The position numbers and the translations under genes were made by a program. Under the pieces are notes generated by a model. It did no database searches and was not told where the DNA came from. It was given only the letters and a program-made list of their open reading frames with translations. From Candidatus Obscuribacterales bacterium (GTDB lineage Bacteria; Cyanobacteriota; Vampirovibrionia; Obscuribacterales; Obscuribacteraceae): DNA of 64,000 bases. Below, one piece after another: positions 3,583 through 17,502 of the stretch (the stretch's first letter is position 1; every line of letters starts with the position of its first letter). The stretch is from positions 248,001 through 312,000 of the forward strand of contig JARLHI010000057.1 in NCBI GenBank assembly GCA_031292355.1, in the 5' to 3' direction.

Positions 3583-4404
3583 TTACTTTCGGCTCGGGAG
3601 CGTCATCAGGTAGTCGGCAATTTTTGTAGCCTCTTCTGGTGTTGCCTTGAATTTCGGCATTGATGTCGGCACAAGCTCAAAAAATTTATCAGTCGTTAAA
3701 GCCTGGGCTTGAGCATCTGTAACCTGCCCAGCAAGGAAATCCTTGCTACGAAAGGCACCGATGCCGTCCAAAGTTGGGCCTATAAGTCCACCCGATTGTT
3801 CGATTTGGTGACACCGAGCACAAGCGAATTTTCCATATAGTTGTTTGCCTTCTTCACTGGACGCCGATTTAGGTTCCGGAACAAAGTCTGGTTTGACTAT
3901 CGGCACTTCCTCAAGTTCAGAACTATGCCGAGTCACAGCAAAGCCAGCGGAAGGTTCCGGAAGCGTCAACAAGAATGCCACCAGTGGTTTGACCATATTG
4001 TCGGGCAACCGAATATGAGGAGTGAGATTCTGCACATCTCCTTTAGTCAATTTGGCATAGGTTGCGATAGCGTCAGGTCTATCGCTTAAACGAGCAGACA
4101 AAAACTTAGCGTCATGATGGCTACCTATGCCATCTAACATCGGACCGATAGAAGCGCCATCATTGTTTATCGAATGACACGCGGCACAATGGACTTGCGC
4201 GTAATATGCTTCCCCTTGCTTGCTTTCATCCGAGTTCGGTGGTGGCGTGTAAGCTCTCGGCTTAATAAGAATAGTCTTAGTGCCACCCTGCTTTTTTGTA
4301 GTCTTGCCCGGCGACTGCGCCTCGCCGGGTCTAAAGAAGCTAACAAGTAGGAGGGTTACGAAAACTCCAGCTGCGATCTGCGTGGTTGTAAAAATTTTGT
4401 TCAC
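3583..4404 (-). CDS. Membrane-anchored or secreted diheme cytochrome c
   Basis: About 273 residues. An N-terminal hydrophobic segment (AAGVFVTLLLVSFF) acts as signal or anchor. A proline/lysine-rich linker follows, then two class I cytochrome c domains with heme motifs CAACH and CARCH. Each is followed by a GPMLDGIG or GPTLDGIG loop and a later Met region (MPKF) expected to supply the axial Met. The family transfers electrons outside the cytoplasmic membrane. A GTG at 4404 with AAGGC upstream is my preferred start; an in-frame TTG at 4422 adds six residues. It is a paralogue of the gene at 20727-21551. Its electron partners are not in the window. Confidence 0.88.
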   Translation of the reverse strand: MNKIFTTTQIAAGVFVTLLLVSFFRPGEAQSPGKTTKKQGGTKTILIKPRAYTPPPNSDESKQGEAYYAQVHCAACHSINNDGASIGPMLDGIGSHHDAKFLSARLSDRPDAIATYAKLTKGDVQNLTPHIRLPDNMVKPLVAFLLTLPEPSAGFAVTRHSSELEEVPIVKPDFVPEPKSASSEEGKQLYGKFACARCHQIEQSGGLIGPTLDGIGAFRSKDFLAGQVTDAQAQALTTDKFFELVPTSMPKFKATPEEATKIADYLMTLPSRK

Positions 4405-4586
4405 TGTTTTGCCTTGCTGCAATGAGTTCTAAACGAGACAAATTCCTTCAAGGGATGAAGCTCTATGGAGTGTTCTTCAGCCACCATGTCAAAATGATGC
4501 AGCAGCGATATGAGCAAGCTACCAAGATTAGTTAAAGTGTACTCCGGTTTTTCCTTCCCGTCATGCGGCCTTACCAGCTATGGTGA

Positions 4587-6928: not shown

Positions 6929-7882
6929 ATGGTTTCAAAGAGCAGCCCTGGCATTCAAGGGGATACTGCGTTTGAGGGAACAGACATTACGCCTCAGGAA
7001 GTCGAAAGACGCCGTGCGTTCCTCGAGTTCACGGAGACAGATATACAAAAGCTCTCCGAAATCCGCGAGTTTTCAAAAGACAACGTCATAGAAATTGTCG
7101 AGGAATTCTATAAGCACCTGTTGTCCTTTCCCGACACCCGAGCTTTTTTCCAGGACCCCAAAGTCCTCAGTAGGGTAAAAACAGCTCAAACCGAATACTT
7201 CCTTCAGCTTACAGCAGGAAACTATGGAGACGATTACGTCAAAGGTCGACTCAGGATTGGCAGAATCCATCAAAACATCGGTCTTAAGTTTGACACTTAC
7301 CTGGGTTCTTACAGGCGCTACCTGGAATCCTTTGCCAGGAAACTGTTTGACAGCTTTAAGAACAAGCCGGAGCAGGCACTAGAGTCTTACATCTCGATGT
7401 TGAAACTGGTATTTTTGGACATCGGTCTATCAATGGATTGTTATCTGCGTACGATTCGTCTGCAGACAGAAGCAATCAGGGAGTTGGCCACGCCGGTGTT
7501 GCAGGTCCGCGAAGGATTGTTGATTTCTCCAATAATCGGTGTGATCGACACACAACGAGCCAGGCAACTTACAGAAGCTATCCTCTGGGGAATCCGGCAA
7601 CAACGAGCCAAAGTGGTGGTGATCGATATTACCGGGGTACCGGTAGTTGACTCAAAAGTTGCCAACCATCTTGTCCAGACAGTGGAGGCTGCTCGCCTGA
7701 TGGGGGCAACAGCTATCCTCACCGGAATTTCTCCAGAGATTGCACAAACCTTGGTCGTTCTCGGTGTGAATCTGACGTCGGTGCGGACTGTAGCCGATCT
7801 TCAGGGAGGAATAGAGGAAGGTGAACGCCACCTGGGATATAGAGTGCTTAAACCCGATGCCCATCACGCTCAGGAAAAATAG
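6929..7882 (+). CDS. rsbR: Globin-coupled RsbR stressosome sensor (protoglobin-STAS)
   Basis: 317 residues. Residues 25-180 form a globin-coupled-sensor domain; RIGRIHQNIGLKFDTYLGSY contains the probable proximal heme histidine, H114. Residues 190-305 form a STAS domain with IGVIDTQRA, VVVIDITGVPVVDSKVANHL and ISPEIAQTLVVLG, closely following Bacillus RsbR. The Ser after VVD and the Thr in AQT fall where RsbT phosphorylates the family (from memory of the alignment). RsbR and RsbS build the cytoplasmic stressosome, and a heme globin in RsbR implies sensing of O2, NO or CO. First gene of the rsbRST-rsbX-kinase operon; the gap to rsbS is 3 bases. Its globin is a paralogue of that in the kinase at 29748. 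Confidence 0.93.
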   Translation: MVSKSSPGIQGDTAFEGTDITPQEVERRRAFLEFTETDIQKLSEIREFSKDNVIEIVEEFYKHLLSFPDTRAFFQDPKVLSRVKTAQTEYFLQLTAGNYGDDYVKGRLRIGRIHQNIGLKFDTYLGSYRRYLESFARKLFDSFKNKPEQALESYISMLKLVFLDIGLSMDCYLRTIRLQTEAIRELATPVLQVREGLLISPIIGVIDTQRARQLTEAILWGIRQQRAKVVVIDITGVPVVDSKVANHLVQTVEAARLMGATAILTGISPEIAQTLVVLGVNLTSVRTVADLQGGIEEGERHLGYRVLKPDAHHAQEK

Positions 7883-7885
7883 ATT

Positions 7886-8260
7886 ATGCCAGTGCCAATT
7901 CTCAAGCAAGGAAGTCTTCTTATAGCAACGCTACAAGCGGCGCTTACAGATAAAGACTGGTTGGAATTTCAAGTGGAGCTTACAAGGCTCGTCGGAGTCC
8001 ACCGCTCAAGCGGCGTAATTTTGGATGTGACAGTCCTTGATGTACTCGATTCGTTTGCGACCAGAAGTCTGAGAAACATTGCCGAAATGGTCAAACTAAG
8101 AGGTGCTCGAGCAGTCGTTGTCGGCATACATCCCGATGTCGCATTCACAATGGTGCAACTCGGGCTGACACTGCATGGAATCGATACCGCAATTGATCTT
8201 GAACACGGCCTTTTCTTATTGGGCGCCACGATTGTAGGTCTTACTAATTCGTATGGATGA
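7886..8260 (+). CDS. rsbS: RsbS stressosome scaffold/antagonist
   Basis: 124 residues, a single STAS domain. The segment LDVTVLDVLDSFATRSLRN carries the serine (in DSF) that RsbT phosphorylates in known RsbS proteins to release itself. GIHPDVAFTMVQLGL is the second STAS signature. In the resting stressosome RsbS, with RsbR, holds the kinase RsbT. Its stop overlaps the rsbT start by 8 bases, indicating coupled translation. Confidence 0.93.
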   Translation: MPVPILKQGSLLIATLQAALTDKDWLEFQVELTRLVGVHRSSGVILDVTVLDVLDSFATRSLRNIAEMVKLRGARAVVVGIHPDVAFTMVQLGLTLHGIDTAIDLEHGLFLLGATIVGLTNSYG

Positions 8261-8657
8261 AATTAGACTGCCGATTTTCGATGAAACTGATATCGTAGAT
8301 GCACGACAGCAAGGCCGGAAGCTCGGTACCACTTTGGGATTCTCAGGCAGCGAGCTAACACTAATAGCAACCGCCATTTCAGAAATTGCACGAAATATAG
8401 TTGTCTATGCCAAAGAAGGCTACATCACGCTTTCGATTGTGGGCACCGCCTCAAAGCACGGGCTTCTTGTATTAGCAGAGGATAACGGTCCTGGTATCGC
8501 GGATCTATCGCTCGCCATGACGGATGGTTATTCGACCCACAAGAGTCTTGGACTTGGACTTCCGGGGGCTAAACGACTCATGGACGAATTTGAAATTGAG
8601 TCTTCACCTGGCAAAGGCACCGTGATTAGGATGATTAAATGGAAGCAGCGGCAATGA
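8253..8657 (+). CDS. rsbT: RsbT serine/threonine kinase (switch kinase)
   Basis: 134 residues of GHKL/HATPase fold: SEIARNIVVYAKEG is the N box, AEDNGPGI the G1 box, and GLGLPGAKRLMDEF with GKGTVI the G2 region. RsbT phosphorylates RsbS and RsbR on stress, leaves the complex and activates a partner through an RsbU_N domain. Here that partner is probably the kinase two genes downstream. Overlaps both rsbS and rsbX. Confidence 0.93.
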   Translation: MDEIRLPIFDETDIVDARQQGRKLGTTLGFSGSELTLIATAISEIARNIVVYAKEGYITLSIVGTASKHGLLVLAEDNGPGIADLSLAMTDGYSTHKSLGLGLPGAKRLMDEFEIESSPGKGTVIRMIKWKQRQ

Positions 8658-9274
8658 CGCGCTCATCAGAGCATATAGGCTTTATCGATTGGGCTGTGGC
8701 TTCCCAGGTGCATCCACATGAGCTGGTTTGTGGTGATGCCTACTGTGTCACTCAGATTGCAAACGGTGTAGTCATTTGTGTTATCGATGGCTTGGGACAC
8801 GGACCGGAAGCTGCTGAAGCTTCTCGTGCGGCCATTGCCACGATATCAAATCATAAAGACGATGCAGCTGAAGAGATTGTAGCCCGGTGCCACGATGCAT
8901 TGAAGGCCACTCGCGGTGCCGTCCTCAGCCTTGCGATTGTAGATAGCGTACACAATCGTCTGAGTTGGGTTGGAATTGGCAATATCGAAGGGATACTGCT
9001 ACATGGAGAGGCTCAACACGAGTGGCTGCCACTGCGTGCTGGCATCGTGGGTTGTCGCATGCCAGGCATTAGGGCCATAGAAATGCCGATCTCCCCAGGT
9101 GACTTGTTAATCATGTTCTCCGACGGTATCACAAGTCACGTACTTGATCCCATACACATTAATCGGGAACCTGTAGAAGTGGCCGAACGCATAATTCGCA
9201 CGCATATCCGGCGCACCGATGACGCGCTCGTTTTGGTTGCCAGGTATCTCGGTAATACTGAATCCATAGGTTAG
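8654..9274 (+). CDS. rsbX: RsbX-like PP2C phosphatase
   Basis: 206 residues from the ATG at 8654, which forms a 4-base ATGA overlap with rsbT (an in-frame ATG at 8639 adds five residues). SpoIIE/PP2C motifs are GDAY near the N-terminus, CVIDGLGHG and IMFSDGI, giving the metal-binding aspartates. RsbX resets the stressosome by dephosphorylating RsbS and RsbR. Length (about 200) and lack of extra domains fit RsbX rather than RsbU. Confidence 0.88.
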   Translation: MTRSSEHIGFIDWAVASQVHPHELVCGDAYCVTQIANGVVICVIDGLGHGPEAAEASRAAIATISNHKDDAAEEIVARCHDALKATRGAVLSLAIVDSVHNRLSWVGIGNIEGILLHGEAQHEWLPLRAGIVGCRMPGIRAIEMPISPGDLLIMFSDGITSHVLDPIHINREPVEVAERIIRTHIRRTDDALVLVARYLGNTESIG

Positions 9275-9282
9275 ACGCTAAG

Positions 9283-10308
9283 TTGCACGATCAGTATAAG
9301 ACGATTCTTTTGCACTATATTGCCGAAGGCGGAGAGCCAGGCTTGGAACTTGCCTACGAATTCGGGCGGCAAGCAATAGAACAAGGGATCAGCATACTCC
9401 AGATAGTCGATGCTCATTACAGTGCACTGAGTGATGTTTTAGCCAGCTCAGGCACAGCTCAAGATGTAATCATCACTCAAAGGGCAGGGAATTTGCTGAA
9501 AGAAGCACTCGGTCCTTTTGAAATGACCCAGAGGGGCTATAGAGATACCATTGACTTGCTTCGTAACCAGAATCTAAAGCTTGCGGAGCTTCTCGAAGAG
9601 CGCTCAAAGTTAATTCAGCAGCGAGAAGATTTTATGTTGGTTGTCACTCACGATCTAAAGACACCGATCACAGCCGCGAACAGATGCTTGACCCTGATGC
9701 TGGACGGCGATTTCGGACCGATGAGTTCTGAGCAGATCGATCTTTTATCCAACCTGAAAGATAGTAACCAGCGAATGTTCACAATGGTCAAAAATCTGCT
9801 GGATGTACACAGGTATGACCAGTCAACTCCAATTCTTTGTCTCAAGGAAGTCGATTCTCACTTGCTTATGGTATCAGCAATCAAAGCATTTACGCTGGCG
9901 GCACGGACTGGCGATGTTGAACTGCACATGGCAGAGACAGAAGATCTTCATTCAGTTCTTGCTGACGAAGGGGCGATCCAACATGTGCTGGCAAATCTCA
10001 TTGATAACGCGATTAAGTTCACGCCGACAGGCGGTGTGATTACTGTGTCCGCGCGAAATTCTGGTTCACACGTTACTTTTGAGGTAAGAGATACAGGCAG
10101 CGGCATTGACCAGGAAGATTTACCCAAGCTGTTTCAAAGATTTTTTCAATCGGCAACCGGTCTCAAACAGTACACCGGTACCGGACTGGGTCTGTACCTC
10201 TGTCAGCAGATTATGAAGGCGCATGGTGGCGAAATCCGCTGTGAAAGCCAACCTGATGTCGGCACCACATTTATCTTTAGCCTTGTTGCGTACAACAATC
10301 AGCAATGA
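9283..10308 (+). CDS. Sensor histidine kinase with RsbU_N-like N-terminus
   Basis: 341 residues, TTG start 8 bases after rsbX. Residues 1-90 (YKTILLHYIAEGGEPGLE...QGISILQIVDAHYSAL...) resemble the RsbU N-terminal domain, the docking site for RsbT. A short coiled coil (about 92-115) follows, then HisKA with phospho-acceptor H123 in VVTHDLKTPITAANR. The HATPase_c has NLIDNAIKF, DTGSGI and GTGLGLYLC. There is no membrane segment, so it acts in the cytoplasm. Position and domain make it the likely RsbT target in place of the PP2C RsbU. No response regulator follows; the NarL-type regulator at 28859 is a candidate. The kinase core closely resembles that of the globin kinase at 29748. Confidence 0.85.
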   Translation: MHDQYKTILLHYIAEGGEPGLELAYEFGRQAIEQGISILQIVDAHYSALSDVLASSGTAQDVIITQRAGNLLKEALGPFEMTQRGYRDTIDLLRNQNLKLAELLEERSKLIQQREDFMLVVTHDLKTPITAANRCLTLMLDGDFGPMSSEQIDLLSNLKDSNQRMFTMVKNLLDVHRYDQSTPILCLKEVDSHLLMVSAIKAFTLAARTGDVELHMAETEDLHSVLADEGAIQHVLANLIDNAIKFTPTGGVITVSARNSGSHVTFEVRDTGSGIDQEDLPKLFQRFFQSATGLKQYTGTGLGLYLCQQIMKAHGGEIRCESQPDVGTTFIFSLVAYNNQQ

Positions 10309-12430: not shown

Positions 12431-13642
12431 CTAAGCCAGAGACTCACTCAAGCTATCTACAGTTTTAAAGCATTGATCGTGCATCATTTCGGTCATAATA
12501 ATTCTGGCGATGCTCTCAGTTGCGTCCGTTTTATCCAGTGAGTGCTCTGATGTTATAGGTGTGCTATCACGCACACTTGGAGCCCTCAAATTGTTGACGA
12601 TAGGCACAATGTCTTCAGCTTGCCGTATAGCCTGACAGACCCCGCAAGACAACAGCATTGAGGCGGTACCGCGTTCCTGCGGCATTACTCCCCCAACCAT
12701 CTCAAAAGCAATTGGTAGACGCCTGGCAATTGCTTCGAAGGTCGTTAAGCCACCAGGTTTTGTCACCAACAAATCGCATGCATTCATCAATTCGTTCATG
12801 TCGTCCACGCGGGGTAAGACAACCGTGGGAAATGTCACCTGCCAGCTCAAGCAACGAATAGCTTCATTGAGTTTAGCGTTTCTTCCACAAATAACGATGA
12901 CCTGAATCTTGCGTCTGACCTCTGCTAGCTTGTTGTAGATTTCCGTAATTTTTCCTCCACCGGCTTCACCAGCACACAAGCAGATCGTCAAAATATCCGG
13001 CTGCAAGTTGAATTTTCTCAAGAAATCGGCTCGGCTTTGCTTACACGGTCTAGAGAAACGACTAGACACGGGCATACCCACAATTTTGACTTTAGAGGCG
13101 TCCAGTCCCAACGCCAGCACTTTGTTTCTCGCTAAATCGTTCGGAACCAATGTCAAATTAGCATCACGACAAGCCCAGCCGCTCCAGAATTGATCGCTTG
13201 GATCTGTGAGAACAACGATTAACTTTGGCTTTTTACCAAATTCCGTTTCGTCGATTGCTCTTTTTAGAAAGTGATTGATCATAGGATGCACAGAAACAAT
13301 GATGTCTGGTCGGGTACGCATCAGAAGCCCTTGCGCATACTTTTTGCTCAACCAATAGCCAGGCTCCCACTCGTTCGGCTTCAGCCATTCTATAAAGGCA
13401 TAGAAATAGTCAAGCCACTGAGGATAATGCTGCTCAAGAAAATTATAAGCATTTTCAAACATTAGATGCACAAAGCTGCTAGGAGCAATCACATCCTCGC
13501 AAATCACATTGATCTTCGTCGTTTCTTTTGATTGTAGGGAAACTTCTGCGATTGCTTCAGAAATTGCGGCAGCAGCACTTTTATGTCCACTTCCAGTGCG
13601 CGCAAAACAAATCAGTACGGTTTTGCTTTCCTGTACATTCAT
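12431..13642 (-). CDS. MGDG-synthase-like diacylglycerol glycosyltransferase (GT28)
   Basis: 403 residues. The N-terminal domain has FARTGSGHKSAAAAI, the monogalactosyldiacylglycerol-synthase-type N-terminal motif. The C-terminal GT28 domain has LCAGEAGGG and TKPGGLTTFEAIARRLPI, the nucleotide-sugar site. Such enzymes transfer sugar from UDP-sugar to diacylglycerol at the inner membrane face (YpfP/MGD family). ATG at 13642 overlaps the upstream USP stop as ATGA, so the two are translated together. An upstream TTG (13651) is a weaker start. Pairing of a membrane-glycolipid enzyme with a USP suggests lipid change under stress (inference). Confidence 0.82.
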   Translation of the reverse strand: MNVQESKTVLICFARTGSGHKSAAAAISEAIAEVSLQSKETTKINVICEDVIAPSSFVHLMFENAYNFLEQHYPQWLDYFYAFIEWLKPNEWEPGYWLSKKYAQGLLMRTRPDIIVSVHPMINHFLKRAIDETEFGKKPKLIVVLTDPSDQFWSGWACRDANLTLVPNDLARNKVLALGLDASKVKIVGMPVSSRFSRPCKQSRADFLRKFNLQPDILTICLCAGEAGGGKITEIYNKLAEVRRKIQVIVICGRNAKLNEAIRCLSWQVTFPTVVLPRVDDMNELMNACDLLVTKPGGLTTFEAIARRLPIAFEMVGGVMPQERGTASMLLSCGVCQAIRQAEDIVPIVNNLRAPSVRDSTPITSEHSLDKTDATESIARIIMTEMMHDQCFKTVDSLSESLA

Positions 13643-14175
13643 TTGCAGCAATCAACCTCAGTAAAATTATCGCAGTGTTCAGCTTGAGCACTGCCCAAAG
13701 GTTTTCTTTTCACGGGGCGCTCTTTGACGATGGTCACGGAGCAATTTACTCCTTGCAAAACTTTTTCTGAAACAGACTTCCGCTTGGCCGACAGAGGATC
13801 TGACTTGTCACGACAACCAATGAAAATCTCATCTGCATGCCATGTACCAGCCAATTTGATTATTGTATCTGCAATATTGCCTTCGGTTACAAACGATTTG
13901 ATGTTATCCAAATGCAAGTCTCCTTTCAATTCAGCAACAGAATACTCAACAAGCTCTGTAAGGAAATGCAGGCGAATGAGTGATGACGCTCCGTAAGCAC
14001 TATGTGGATAACGCTTTTCAGAGATAGGATCCACATCTGAAGATTCAGCAATACTCACCACCAAAATTTCAGTATCTTTTGGCCAGCATCGTGTTTTCAA
14101 ATATCGCCGCACTGACATCGACGATTGAGAATCATCGATTGCAACAAGAACTCTCACTGCACGATTATGCTTCAT
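13639..14175 (-). CDS. Universal stress protein, divergent (no ATP-loop)
   Basis: 178 residues. The N-terminal VRVLVAIDDSQSSM and C-terminal VNCSVTIVKE frame a USP fold. In place of the ATP-binding G-x2-G-x9-G(S/T) stretch it reads GCRDKSDPLSAKRKSVSEKV, lacking the glycines, so it probably does not bind ATP. It also has a 25-residue tail ending in two cysteines. It is the first gene of a two-gene unit with the glycosyltransferase, and is divergent from the USP at 14340 across a 164-base promoter region. Confidence 0.8.
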   Translation of the reverse strand: MKHNRAVRVLVAIDDSQSSMSVRRYLKTRCWPKDTEILVVSIAESSDVDPISEKRYPHSAYGASSLIRLHFLTELVEYSVAELKGDLHLDNIKSFVTEGNIADTIIKLAGTWHADEIFIGCRDKSDPLSAKRKSVSEKVLQGVNCSVTIVKERPVKRKPLGSAQAEHCDNFTEVDCCK

Positions 14176-14270
14176 CTCCGCCCGCCCGTAAACAAAAACA
14201 CATAACTATTTTGTGTCTATGGAGAACATAATAGTCGGCGCACAATGATTCGGCATCATCACAACGAATC

Positions 14271-14286
14271 AATCGTTCGAACGATT
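14271..14286. promoter_or_regulatory. Perfect 16-bp palindrome between divergent USP genes
   Basis: AATCGTTCGAACGATT is fully self-complementary and lies 95 bases upstream of the minus-strand USP and 53 bases upstream of the plus-strand USP. The size and symmetry fit an operator for a dimeric regulator. The regulator is unknown. Confidence 0.45.
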
Positions 14287-14315
14287 CCAGCAAAACATAG
14301 TTTGAGTAATCTTGT

Positions 14316-14339
14316 GTAATTACGACAGCAGGTAATTAC
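14316..14339. promoter_or_regulatory. Two GTAATTAC palindromes abutting the USP start
   Basis: GTAATTAC occurs at 14316-14323 and again at 14332-14339, with centres 16 bases apart, the second ending right before the ATG. The same octamer occurs at 19729-19736 upstream of the second hsp20 gene. The site could be an operator or could affect ribosome access. Confidence 0.35.
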
Positions 14340-14834
14340 ATGAAAATTCTCATCGCGACAGACGGCTCAGAATGCTCTGAAATAGCTCTAAAACATGTAC
14401 TAGACGACCGAAGCCTACCAATTGACTGCGAATTTAGAGTCATTTCTGTTGTCGAAGGCATTGTCACCATGTATCCGATGGGTGGCTACTATGACGTCTC
14501 GTTATTAGAAGCAGAGAAAGCTTTACAACAGGACAGAATCAATGACGTAGCCAATATTGTTGCCAGACTGAAGCAACAATATCCACGAGCGACGGCCGAT
14601 GGTCATGTTTACCCTGGCCATCCCGCTGACCAAATCCTAGAAGCCGCCGACAAATGGTGTGCGGATCTCATCGTCCTTGGTTCTCATGGCAGGCGAGGTT
14701 TCAGTCATTTCTTGATGGGTAGCGTTGCTGAAAAAGTCGCACGGGAAGCGAAGTGTACGGTGGAAGTGATACGCAAGCCTCCAGTGACCTCAGAAAAGAA
14801 GAAAGCAAGCGACACATTATTATCGCGAAAATAG
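14340..14834 (+). CDS. Universal stress protein (ATP-binding type)
   Basis: 164 residues, a single USP domain: MKILIATDGSECSEIALKHV at the start and LIVLGSHGRRGFSHFLMGSVAEKVAREAKCTVEVIR at 110-150, with the intact G-x2-G-x9-G(S) ATP loop. Cytoplasmic, probably a dimer. USPs of this type bind ATP and modulate survival under oxygen or nutrient limitation. No strong ribosome binding site is visible, only AGCAGG overlapping a GTAATTAC palindrome. Followed 16 bases later by an unknown exported protein and then ftsH, suggesting a stress operon. Confidence 0.93.
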   Translation: MKILIATDGSECSEIALKHVLDDRSLPIDCEFRVISVVEGIVTMYPMGGYYDVSLLEAEKALQQDRINDVANIVARLKQQYPRATADGHVYPGHPADQILEAADKWCADLIVLGSHGRRGFSHFLMGSVAEKVAREAKCTVEVIRKPPVTSEKKKASDTLLSRK

Positions 14835-15636: not shown

Positions 15637-17502
15637 ATGCCGGAAAAAAGCGATAACAAAAATCAAGGCTCTCCCTGGCTTATGTTCAGTTTGGTCTGGC
15701 TTTCGTTGATTCTATTTAGTTGGTTGATTACCTCTCTAACTACGGCGCACATTCAATACAGCAAATTCATCAATTTGCTCAACCAAAACCAAATCAAAGA
15801 AGTAGAAATTAGCGATAAGGAACTAAGCGGAACCTATATCGATCCAAAAAGCAAAAAGGAAATTCAGTTCCAGACGGGTAGAGTGCCAGCTGATTTGGCT
15901 GCGCAATTGCAGGCTAAAGATGTTGTATTTAGCCGATCAGTAGACACTCCTGAACTAATCAAATGGCTCGTTCCGCTATTTCTATTTCTTTTAATATTGA
16001 AAGCTTTCGAGCACCAACTCCCCGGCGCCGATTCAGCCCCGGCCAATCCCTTTAATTTTGGTAAAAGTAGAGCCCGACTCTACAAAGAAAAAGATGTTCG
16101 CATAACCTTCAAAGATGTCGCAGGCATTGATGAAGTCAAAGCCGAACTCGAAGAGATTATTGATTTTTTGAAAAACCCAGAGAAGTTTCGAAAGCTCGGT
16201 GGTCGATTGCCCAAAGGAATTCTGCTTGTCGGTCCTCCTGGCACAGGGAAAACACTTCTGGCTAAAGCAGTAGCAGGAGAAACAAAACGTCCATTTTTGT
16301 TCATCACCGGTTCTGAATTTGTCGAACTGTACGTTGGCGTTGGAGCGGCACGTGTTCGCGACCTGTTTCAACAAGCACTCGAAAATGCCCCGTGCATAAT
16401 ATTCATAGATGAGCTGGACGCTCTGGGCCGCGCGAGAGGCAATAGTGCATTTGCCGGTGGACACGACGAAAAAGAACAAACACTAAATCAATTACTGGCT
16501 GAGCTTGATGGCTTCGATCCAAGACAGGGCGTCATCCTACTTGCTGCTACCAACAGACCAGAAATACTTGATCCAGCACTCTTGCGGGCAGGAAGATTTG
16601 ATCGACAAATTCTTGTCGACCGACCAGATAAGATTGGACGGGTGCAAATTTTGCAAGTGCATATGAAGACTGTCACGCTTGATGCCAGTGTTAAGCCAGA
16701 AGAAATTGCGGCGATGACTACAGGATTTACAGGAGCAGAATTAGCGAATCTGGTCAACGAAGCCGCTTTGCTCGCAGCCAGAAGATCTGCTGAAAGCATC
16801 ATGCCTGCAGATTTCCAAAACGCGTTCGAACGCATAGTCGCTGGTCTGGAAAAGAAAAATAGAGTGATTAAAATCGAAGAGAGAAAAATAGTGGCATTCC
16901 ATGAGATGGGACACGCTTTGGTTGGACTATTTTTAAACGAACACGATCCAGTAGAAAAAGTATCAATCATACCCCGGGGTATCAGCGCACTCGGTTACAC
17001 CATGCAAAGACCGCAAGAAGATCGGTATTTGCTCACAGAGAACGAACTCAAAACCAAACTAGCGATCCTAATGGGAGGAACAGCGGCCGAACAAGTTCAA
17101 TTCAACTTGAAGTCAACGGGCTCGGCTGATGACCTGGAAAAAGCGACCGAACTGGCCAGGCATATGGTCAGTCAGTTCGGTATGTCGCAAAATTTGGGCA
17201 TGGCAGTTTATGAAAGCGGACCAAGAAATCTAAACGCCAACAATGAGTTTAACGGTTCCATAAACAAGAATTGCAGTGAGAGGACTGCCCGAGAAATTGA
17301 TTGTGAAATTCGCTCACTAATTAACGAAGCTTTCAATACAGCTACTGAGATTCTCGTCTCGCATAAGTTTGCTCTAGATGCAGGCGCTCAAATGCTAATC
17401 GAAAAAGAAACTCTATCACGCGATGAGTTGATAACAATCAAAAATATGAGCCCTACCGAATCATTTGAACCTGGTGTTAAAAGACTTGCCCCAATCAGTT
17501 AG
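15637..17502 (+). CDS. ftsH: FtsH-type AAA+ zinc metalloprotease
   Basis: 621 residues. Two membrane helices (about 13-34 and 107-122) flank a small periplasmic domain. AAA+ module: Walker A GPPGTGKT at 199-206, Walker B IIFIDE at 254-259, second region of homology [18 protein letters not shown]. Protease: HEMGH at 422-426 with a downstream acidic ligand expected in [13 protein letters not shown]. FtsH degrades misfolded membrane and regulatory proteins in an ATP-dependent hexamer. The pore segment reads ELYVGVGA rather than the common EMFVGVGA. It lies in a cluster with USPs, so this copy is probably a stress-specific paralogue rather than the housekeeping one (inference). Confidence 0.95.

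Follow-up and report, generated by a model that had tools for sequence, protein, structure and literature searches.

A globin stressosome operon with an RsbU_N histidine kinase as its likely output in Candidatus Obscuribacterales

A stressosome operon of five genes, rsbR-rsbS-rsbT-rsbX-histidine kinase, was found on the plus strand of a contig from a Candidatus Obscuribacterales bacterium (window 6929-10308 by open reading frame positions, Table 1; the window is the whole stretch of 64,000 nucleotides that was analysed). The analysis confirmed it as a globin stressosome operon ending in a kinase gene. The preferred reading, given a probability of about 0.8, is that of a minimal globin stressosome in which the histidine kinase is switched by docking of RsbT on its RsbU_N domain. 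The earlier note on this DNA described the five genes as overlapping or nearly touching, and all the open reading frames were indeed present with a spacing of -19 to +8 bp: a 3-bp gap between rsbR and rsbS, an 8-bp overlap of rsbS with rsbT, a 19-bp overlap of rsbT with rsbX and an 8-bp gap before the kinase gene. A scan of the operon for promoter and terminator consensus sequences gave nothing above chance. The operon, with its domains, the sole RsbU_N and RsbT matches of its genome and its order kept in relatives, is far beyond chance.

Table 1. Features of the stressosome operon in the window
Feature	Position	Strand	Basis
rsbR: predicted haem protoglobin (residues 23-175) and STAS (189-281)	6929..7882	+	Pfam; structure alignment
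rsbS: single STAS domain	7886..8260	+	Pfam
rsbT: GHKL switch kinase	8253..8657	+	Pfam
rsbX: single-domain SpoIIE-type PP2C, predicted feedback phosphatase	8639..9274	+	Pfam; metal-site motifs
Soluble histidine kinase: RsbU_N, continuous helical linker, HisKA, HATPase_c; TTG start	9283..10308	+	Pfam; AlphaFold
Predicted RsbU_N docking/dimerisation domain of kinase, residues 4-80	9292..9522	+	PF08673; four-helix model

The N-terminal domain of the kinase was identified with the Pfam profile PF08673 (RsbU_N). Residues 4-80 matched positions 2-73 of the 75 in the profile with an E-value of 1e-11 and 45.2 bits, against a curated cut-off of 25.5 bits, and the fragment 1-126 by itself gave an E-value of 1.3e-12. 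A single-sequence PDB search with the same N-terminus reached RsbU at only E=0.036, and the Pfam profile was taken as decisive instead. The remaining Pfam matches were HisKA (9e-8) and HATPase_c (3.2e-32), and no receiver domain was found in the kinase by Pfam. The H-box His123, the N-box Asn242 and the G-box motifs DTGSG and GTGLG are those of a HisKA-type histidine kinase, which is PhoR/PnpS/WalK-like. Residues 1-116 were modelled by AlphaFold2 as four helices with a mean pLDDT of 97. In the full-length AlphaFold model (mean pLDDT 84) helix 4 runs unbroken from residue 58 to 140, across the linker and the phospho-acceptor His123. Foldseek with the four-helix model returned six RsbU_N chains within the top 20, 2j6y, 1w53 and 2j70 among them (best rank 3, probability 0.66-0.85, TM 0.61-0.63 on target length); as their E-values were at least 0.77 and no solved structure was matched significantly, the fold comparison is only suggestive. 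The earlier note had likened this N-terminus to the RsbT-docking domain of RsbU. The profile bears out the likeness, and on the structural side the high-confidence four-helix model agrees with it, while the third-ranked RsbU_N match fell short of a significant E-value. Profile, predicted structure, conserved synteny and the exact co-occurrence with RsbT described below agree in pointing to a putative RsbT-docking domain.

The proteins encoded upstream of the kinase were also analysed. RsbR matched Protoglobin (1.3e-34) and STAS (1.6e-14) and aligned with the RsbR structure of Vibrio vulnificus (7o0i) over most of its length with an E-value of 8.9e-47. From this alignment the candidate haem ligands are Tyr61 (distal) and His114 (proximal), and gas sensing by RsbR is plausible since the globin keeps the haem-binding histidine and tyrosine. 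The claim that the sensor is a haem globin stands as a prediction from the Protoglobin match and these two residues. Motifs gave Thr188 and Thr208 of RsbR and Ser56 of RsbS as candidate phosphorylation sites for RsbT. RsbS matched STAS (2.8e-10), and RsbX matched the SpoIIE PP2C family (1.7e-13) with the metal-site motifs DGLGHG, SDG and DD. Judged by sequence, the four adjacent genes form a globin RSTX module, namely a globin-STAS RsbR, a STAS RsbS, a GHKL RsbT and a short PP2C RsbX.

RsbT itself matched HATPase_c (1.1e-10) and keeps the ATP-site residues N48 and D77. In Bacillus subtilis, Arg19, Arg23 and Asp92 of RsbT contact RsbU (PMC12143880); these correspond by alignment to Arg18, Arg22 and Asp91 of the window RsbT, the B. 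subtilis numbering being transferred via Bacillaceae RsbT sequences (L142, L150). On the kinase side, Tyr28 of RsbU is not conserved, and Arg94, which would pair with Asp91 of RsbT, is a possible counterpart of RsbU Arg91, the alignment having a gap of about four residues before that position. Kinases from Alphaproteobacteria have lost the equivalent of Arg91, though their RsbT proteins retain the aspartate. Covariation of RsbT Asp92 with RsbU Arg91 was dropped as evidence for docking because the Arg91 equivalent is both uncertain here and missing from those kinases.

The HDLKT sequence at His123 keeps the HD-x-x-T motif, which is typical of bifunctional HisKA kinases. The best-studied pair of RsbT and RsbU_N is that of B. 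subtilis, in which RsbT activates RsbU via RsbU_N and the linker (PMC12143880). In the mechanism proposed here, RsbR with its haem globin would build the stressosome together with RsbS and hold RsbT. A change of the haem ligand, most likely O2 by analogy with Vibrio RsbR but possibly NO or CO, would lead RsbT to phosphorylate RsbR and RsbS and then to leave. The released RsbT would dock both on the four-helix dimer of RsbU_N and on the helical linker, which runs straight to His123, and would order or re-phase the coiled coil, switching the balance of kinase and phosphatase activity. The kinase would then phosphorylate a response regulator encoded elsewhere, and RsbX would reset the stressosome by dephosphorylating RsbR and RsbS. 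Binding of RsbT might instead turn the kinase off or bias it toward phosphatase activity; the conserved HD-x-x-T motif favours this sign, a change in linker phase or rigidity could stabilise either state, and the authors of the RsbU study note that the linker is modelled differently in PP2C and in kinases (PMC12143880). The activation of RsbU in B. subtilis speaks against it, and this sign is considered rather unlikely.

The length of the linker was counted from the near-invariant glutamate of helix 4 (E74 in the window kinase) to the phospho-histidine, for those RsbU_N-HisKA kinases that have no further domain in between. Nine length classes were obtained (42, 46, 49, 60, 63, 65, 70, 74 and 88 residues), the window kinase and its operon relatives having 49. 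All but one of the nine fit 7n or 7n+4, the exception being the 65 residues of L077. Under uniform phases the chance of eight in nine is about 0.002 if the pair has the form {a, a+4} and 0.006 if every pair is allowed, for a small set in which the {7n, 7n+4} pairing was spotted after the fact. As 7n+4 corresponds to a coiled-coil stutter, these lengths are in keeping with a dimeric helix whose phase has to be maintained. Linker periodicity is known in other kinases; for this reason, and given the small set and the post hoc pairing, the result supports signal passing down a dimeric coiled coil and is no discovery of a new rule.

The genome of 6.6 Mb contained a single RsbU_N match, the kinase, and a single RsbT-like match, the one in the same operon. 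With just three STAS matches in the genome, two of them being RsbR and RsbS of the operon, the wiring looks one-to-one. The same order of genes occurs in three further genomes of the family, G028 (L062), G011 (L064) and G442 (L065), with protein identities of 72-74% for RsbR, 82-86% for RsbS, 68-73% for RsbT, 44-50% for RsbX and 50-58% for the kinase. Among the 41 family genomes tested RsbU_N was found in four, and these are exactly the ones with the close RsbT type (68-73% identity) in the R-S-T-X-HK order. Other genomes of the family carry a different R-S-T-T-X-kinase locus (L066, L067) and RsbU_N was not found in them; the docking domain therefore tracks this RsbT type and not stressosome genes generally.

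The proteins of the different locus (L066:6233-10775, L067:7050-11565) are an RsbR that lacks this globin, an RsbS, a pair of RsbT-like proteins, a fusion of HATPase with PP2C, and a kinase that has an RsbT-like ATPase domain at its N-terminus. A further RsbT homologue, divergent (59-61% identical) and with no adjoining rsbR or rsbS, was seen in G028 (L062:11649-13330) and G011 (L063:5191-5613). In G028 it lies about 1 kb from rsbR, and the next gene encodes a histidine kinase whose N-terminus is not RsbU_N and possibly consists of membrane helices. In G011 a caspase-domain protein (Peptidase_C14, L064:3997-6048) is encoded about 50 bp downstream of the operon kinase on the same strand.

Histidine kinases with RsbU_N were also observed in other families of the phylum (L070:7762-9348, L073:8426-9595, L074:2259-3515 and L072:7133-8344). 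The kinases of L070, L073 and L074 have as a common neighbour a gene for a CBS/hemolysin-like membrane protein, and no RsbT adjoined any of the four within the locus stretch examined. Such kinases of the phylum's other families (L070, L073, L074), and the fact that RsbU_N by itself is a dimeric four-helix bundle, would suit a kinase that is merely co-transcribed and whose RsbU_N is a plain dimerisation domain no longer binding RsbT. Within the family RsbT and RsbU_N co-occur exactly, and the tight operon order is conserved across four genomes and distant phyla; both facts argue against this reading, and it is held to be improbable.

The output of the kinase would lie elsewhere in the genome, which has 139 receiver (REC) matches. 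No cognate response regulator was found alongside the kinase, neither in the locus nor within about 19 kb. The closest receivers of the contig lie at about 29.2 and 42.6 kb of the window, roughly 19 and 32 kb further downstream than the kinase, which makes it an orphan kinase; with no adjacent regulator, the phosphorelay is incomplete as seen. Genes for cytochrome c (two haem-c stretches) and universal stress proteins were observed near the operon (window 3583-4422, 13639-14834), likewise in G028 (L062:3787-5983, 16402-16914), and a universal stress protein gene in G442 (L065:15888-16370). These neighbours may hint at a respiratory or anoxia setting. Photosystem II reaction-centre genes are absent from the genome of the window and from the sampled members of its class and are present elsewhere in the phylum, which points to a non-photosynthetic class within Cyanobacteriota.

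The wider distribution was surveyed by scanning named genomes, a set without the relatives of the window genome, with an RsbT alignment and annotating the matches, and the arrangement proved to be widespread. An RsbU_N HMM built for this work with the linker included strayed onto the coiled coils of RsbR; it served for candidate finding alone, and the counts come from Pfam. RsbU_N was present in 35 of the 44 sampled named genomes having a related RsbT. Globin R, S, T and X together with a RsbU_N-HisKA-HATPase_c kinase were found in a Rhodospirillales MAG (L077), a Bradyrhizobium MAG (L078), an Acetobacteraceae MAG (L097) and Tritonibacter (L101), and apparently the same arrangement in Phaeobacter (L109) and Leisingera (L113), the RsbU_N score of the latter (24.2 bits) being just under the cut-off. 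In Acidobacteria and the gammaproteobacterium L104, RsbU_N-HisKA_3 kinases come after an R protein that has no full globin match to the window RsbR. Noviherbaspirillum (L076, L087) has a globin R with a RsbU_N-PAS-GAF-GGDEF-EAL output, and a mycobacterium (L117) a RsbU_N-PAS-PP2C protein. RsbU_N is rare overall; in a sample of 385 genomes from the class to which L078 belongs it occurred in five, of which two were already known. In the same class, L159:84-3009 carries S-T-X and then a hybrid kinase, RsbU_N-HisKA-HATPase_c-REC, a docking-domain kinase having its own receiver.

The wiring of a stressosome to a histidine kinase, whose novelty the earlier note implied, was already published in 2022 and 2025 (PMC9237108, PMC12143880), and this literature places RsbU_N kinases and cyclases in stressosome operons. 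In the work of Heinz et al. (2022), signalling proteins with RsbU_N and HisKA/REC phosphorelays come after globin RSTX modules; the authors took this as strongly suggesting stressosome-dependent signalling and listed Cyanobacteria among the hosts of such modules (PMC9237108). Their modules from Vibrio vulnificus, Dongia, Ruegeria and others (Fig. 3) share with the window the order globin rsbR, rsbS, rsbT, rsbX and signalling gene; the output carries RsbU_N in some alpha-, beta- and gammaproteobacteria, whereas that of V. vulnificus is without it. No interaction was seen there between RsbT and the downstream kinase-like protein (PMC9237108), which counts against the preferred reading, though for an output that lacks RsbU_N. 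It is very improbable that RsbT acts enzymatically by phosphorylating Ser/Thr of the kinase, as Heinz et al. proposed for downstream kinases without RsbU_N (PMC9237108), for although RsbT does phosphorylate Ser/Thr of STAS proteins and the window RsbT keeps its ATP-site residues, the kinase has the domain that RsbT binds as an allosteric partner in B. subtilis, and with a docking domain present its transient phosphorylation is unnecessary.

Switching by docking, the preferred reading, has further published counterparts. The eLife 2025 study of RsbU reports histidine kinases with RsbU_N from stressosome operons and includes a model of one such kinase (PMC12143880). An example from that study, 'NreB' MBI3545564.1, shares RsbU_N, a helical coiled-coil linker and a histidine kinase with the window protein, and such kinases occur in rsbT operons; going by its NreB annotation it is probably of HisKA_3 type, while the window kinase is of HisKA type. 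In the stressosome-GGDEF system of Moorella thermoacetica (MtG), for which PMC12143880 cites Quin et al. 2012, RsbT and RsbU_N likewise control a non-phosphatase output, which is a diguanylate cyclase in place of a histidine kinase. The B. subtilis RsbRST-RsbU-sigmaB system also has RsbR, RsbS, RsbT, RsbX and an RsbU_N output, but its globin RsbR is non-haem and it signals through a PP2C to RsbV/RsbW/sigmaB. What is new here is the host lineage, which belongs to the cyanobacterial phylum but is non-photosynthetic, in comparison with the RSTX hosts of Heinz et al., the orphan kinase, unlike L101, where a single receiver protein directly follows the kinase, and unlike L109 and L113, which also have an adjacent receiver protein, and the linker lengths keeping coiled-coil phase (7n or 7n+4).

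The published RsbT-RsbU_N-kinase wiring is thereby extended to a group of Cyanobacteriota that does not photosynthesise. The compact system, with one RsbT, one RsbU_N and one globin RsbR, is suited to an assay of the predicted switching of the kinase by RsbT, and the phase pattern of the linkers gives a concrete and testable indication that kinases follow the same coiled-coil logic. In a wider picture, an oxygen-sensing stressosome would drive an orphan kinase feeding one or several distant regulators in non-photosynthetic Cyanobacteriota, and outputs on which RsbT docks (two classes of kinase, GGDEF-EAL, PP2C and PAS) would be exchanged behind one docking domain across bacteria with the linker held to 7n or 7n+4; the odds that both parts hold together are put at about even.
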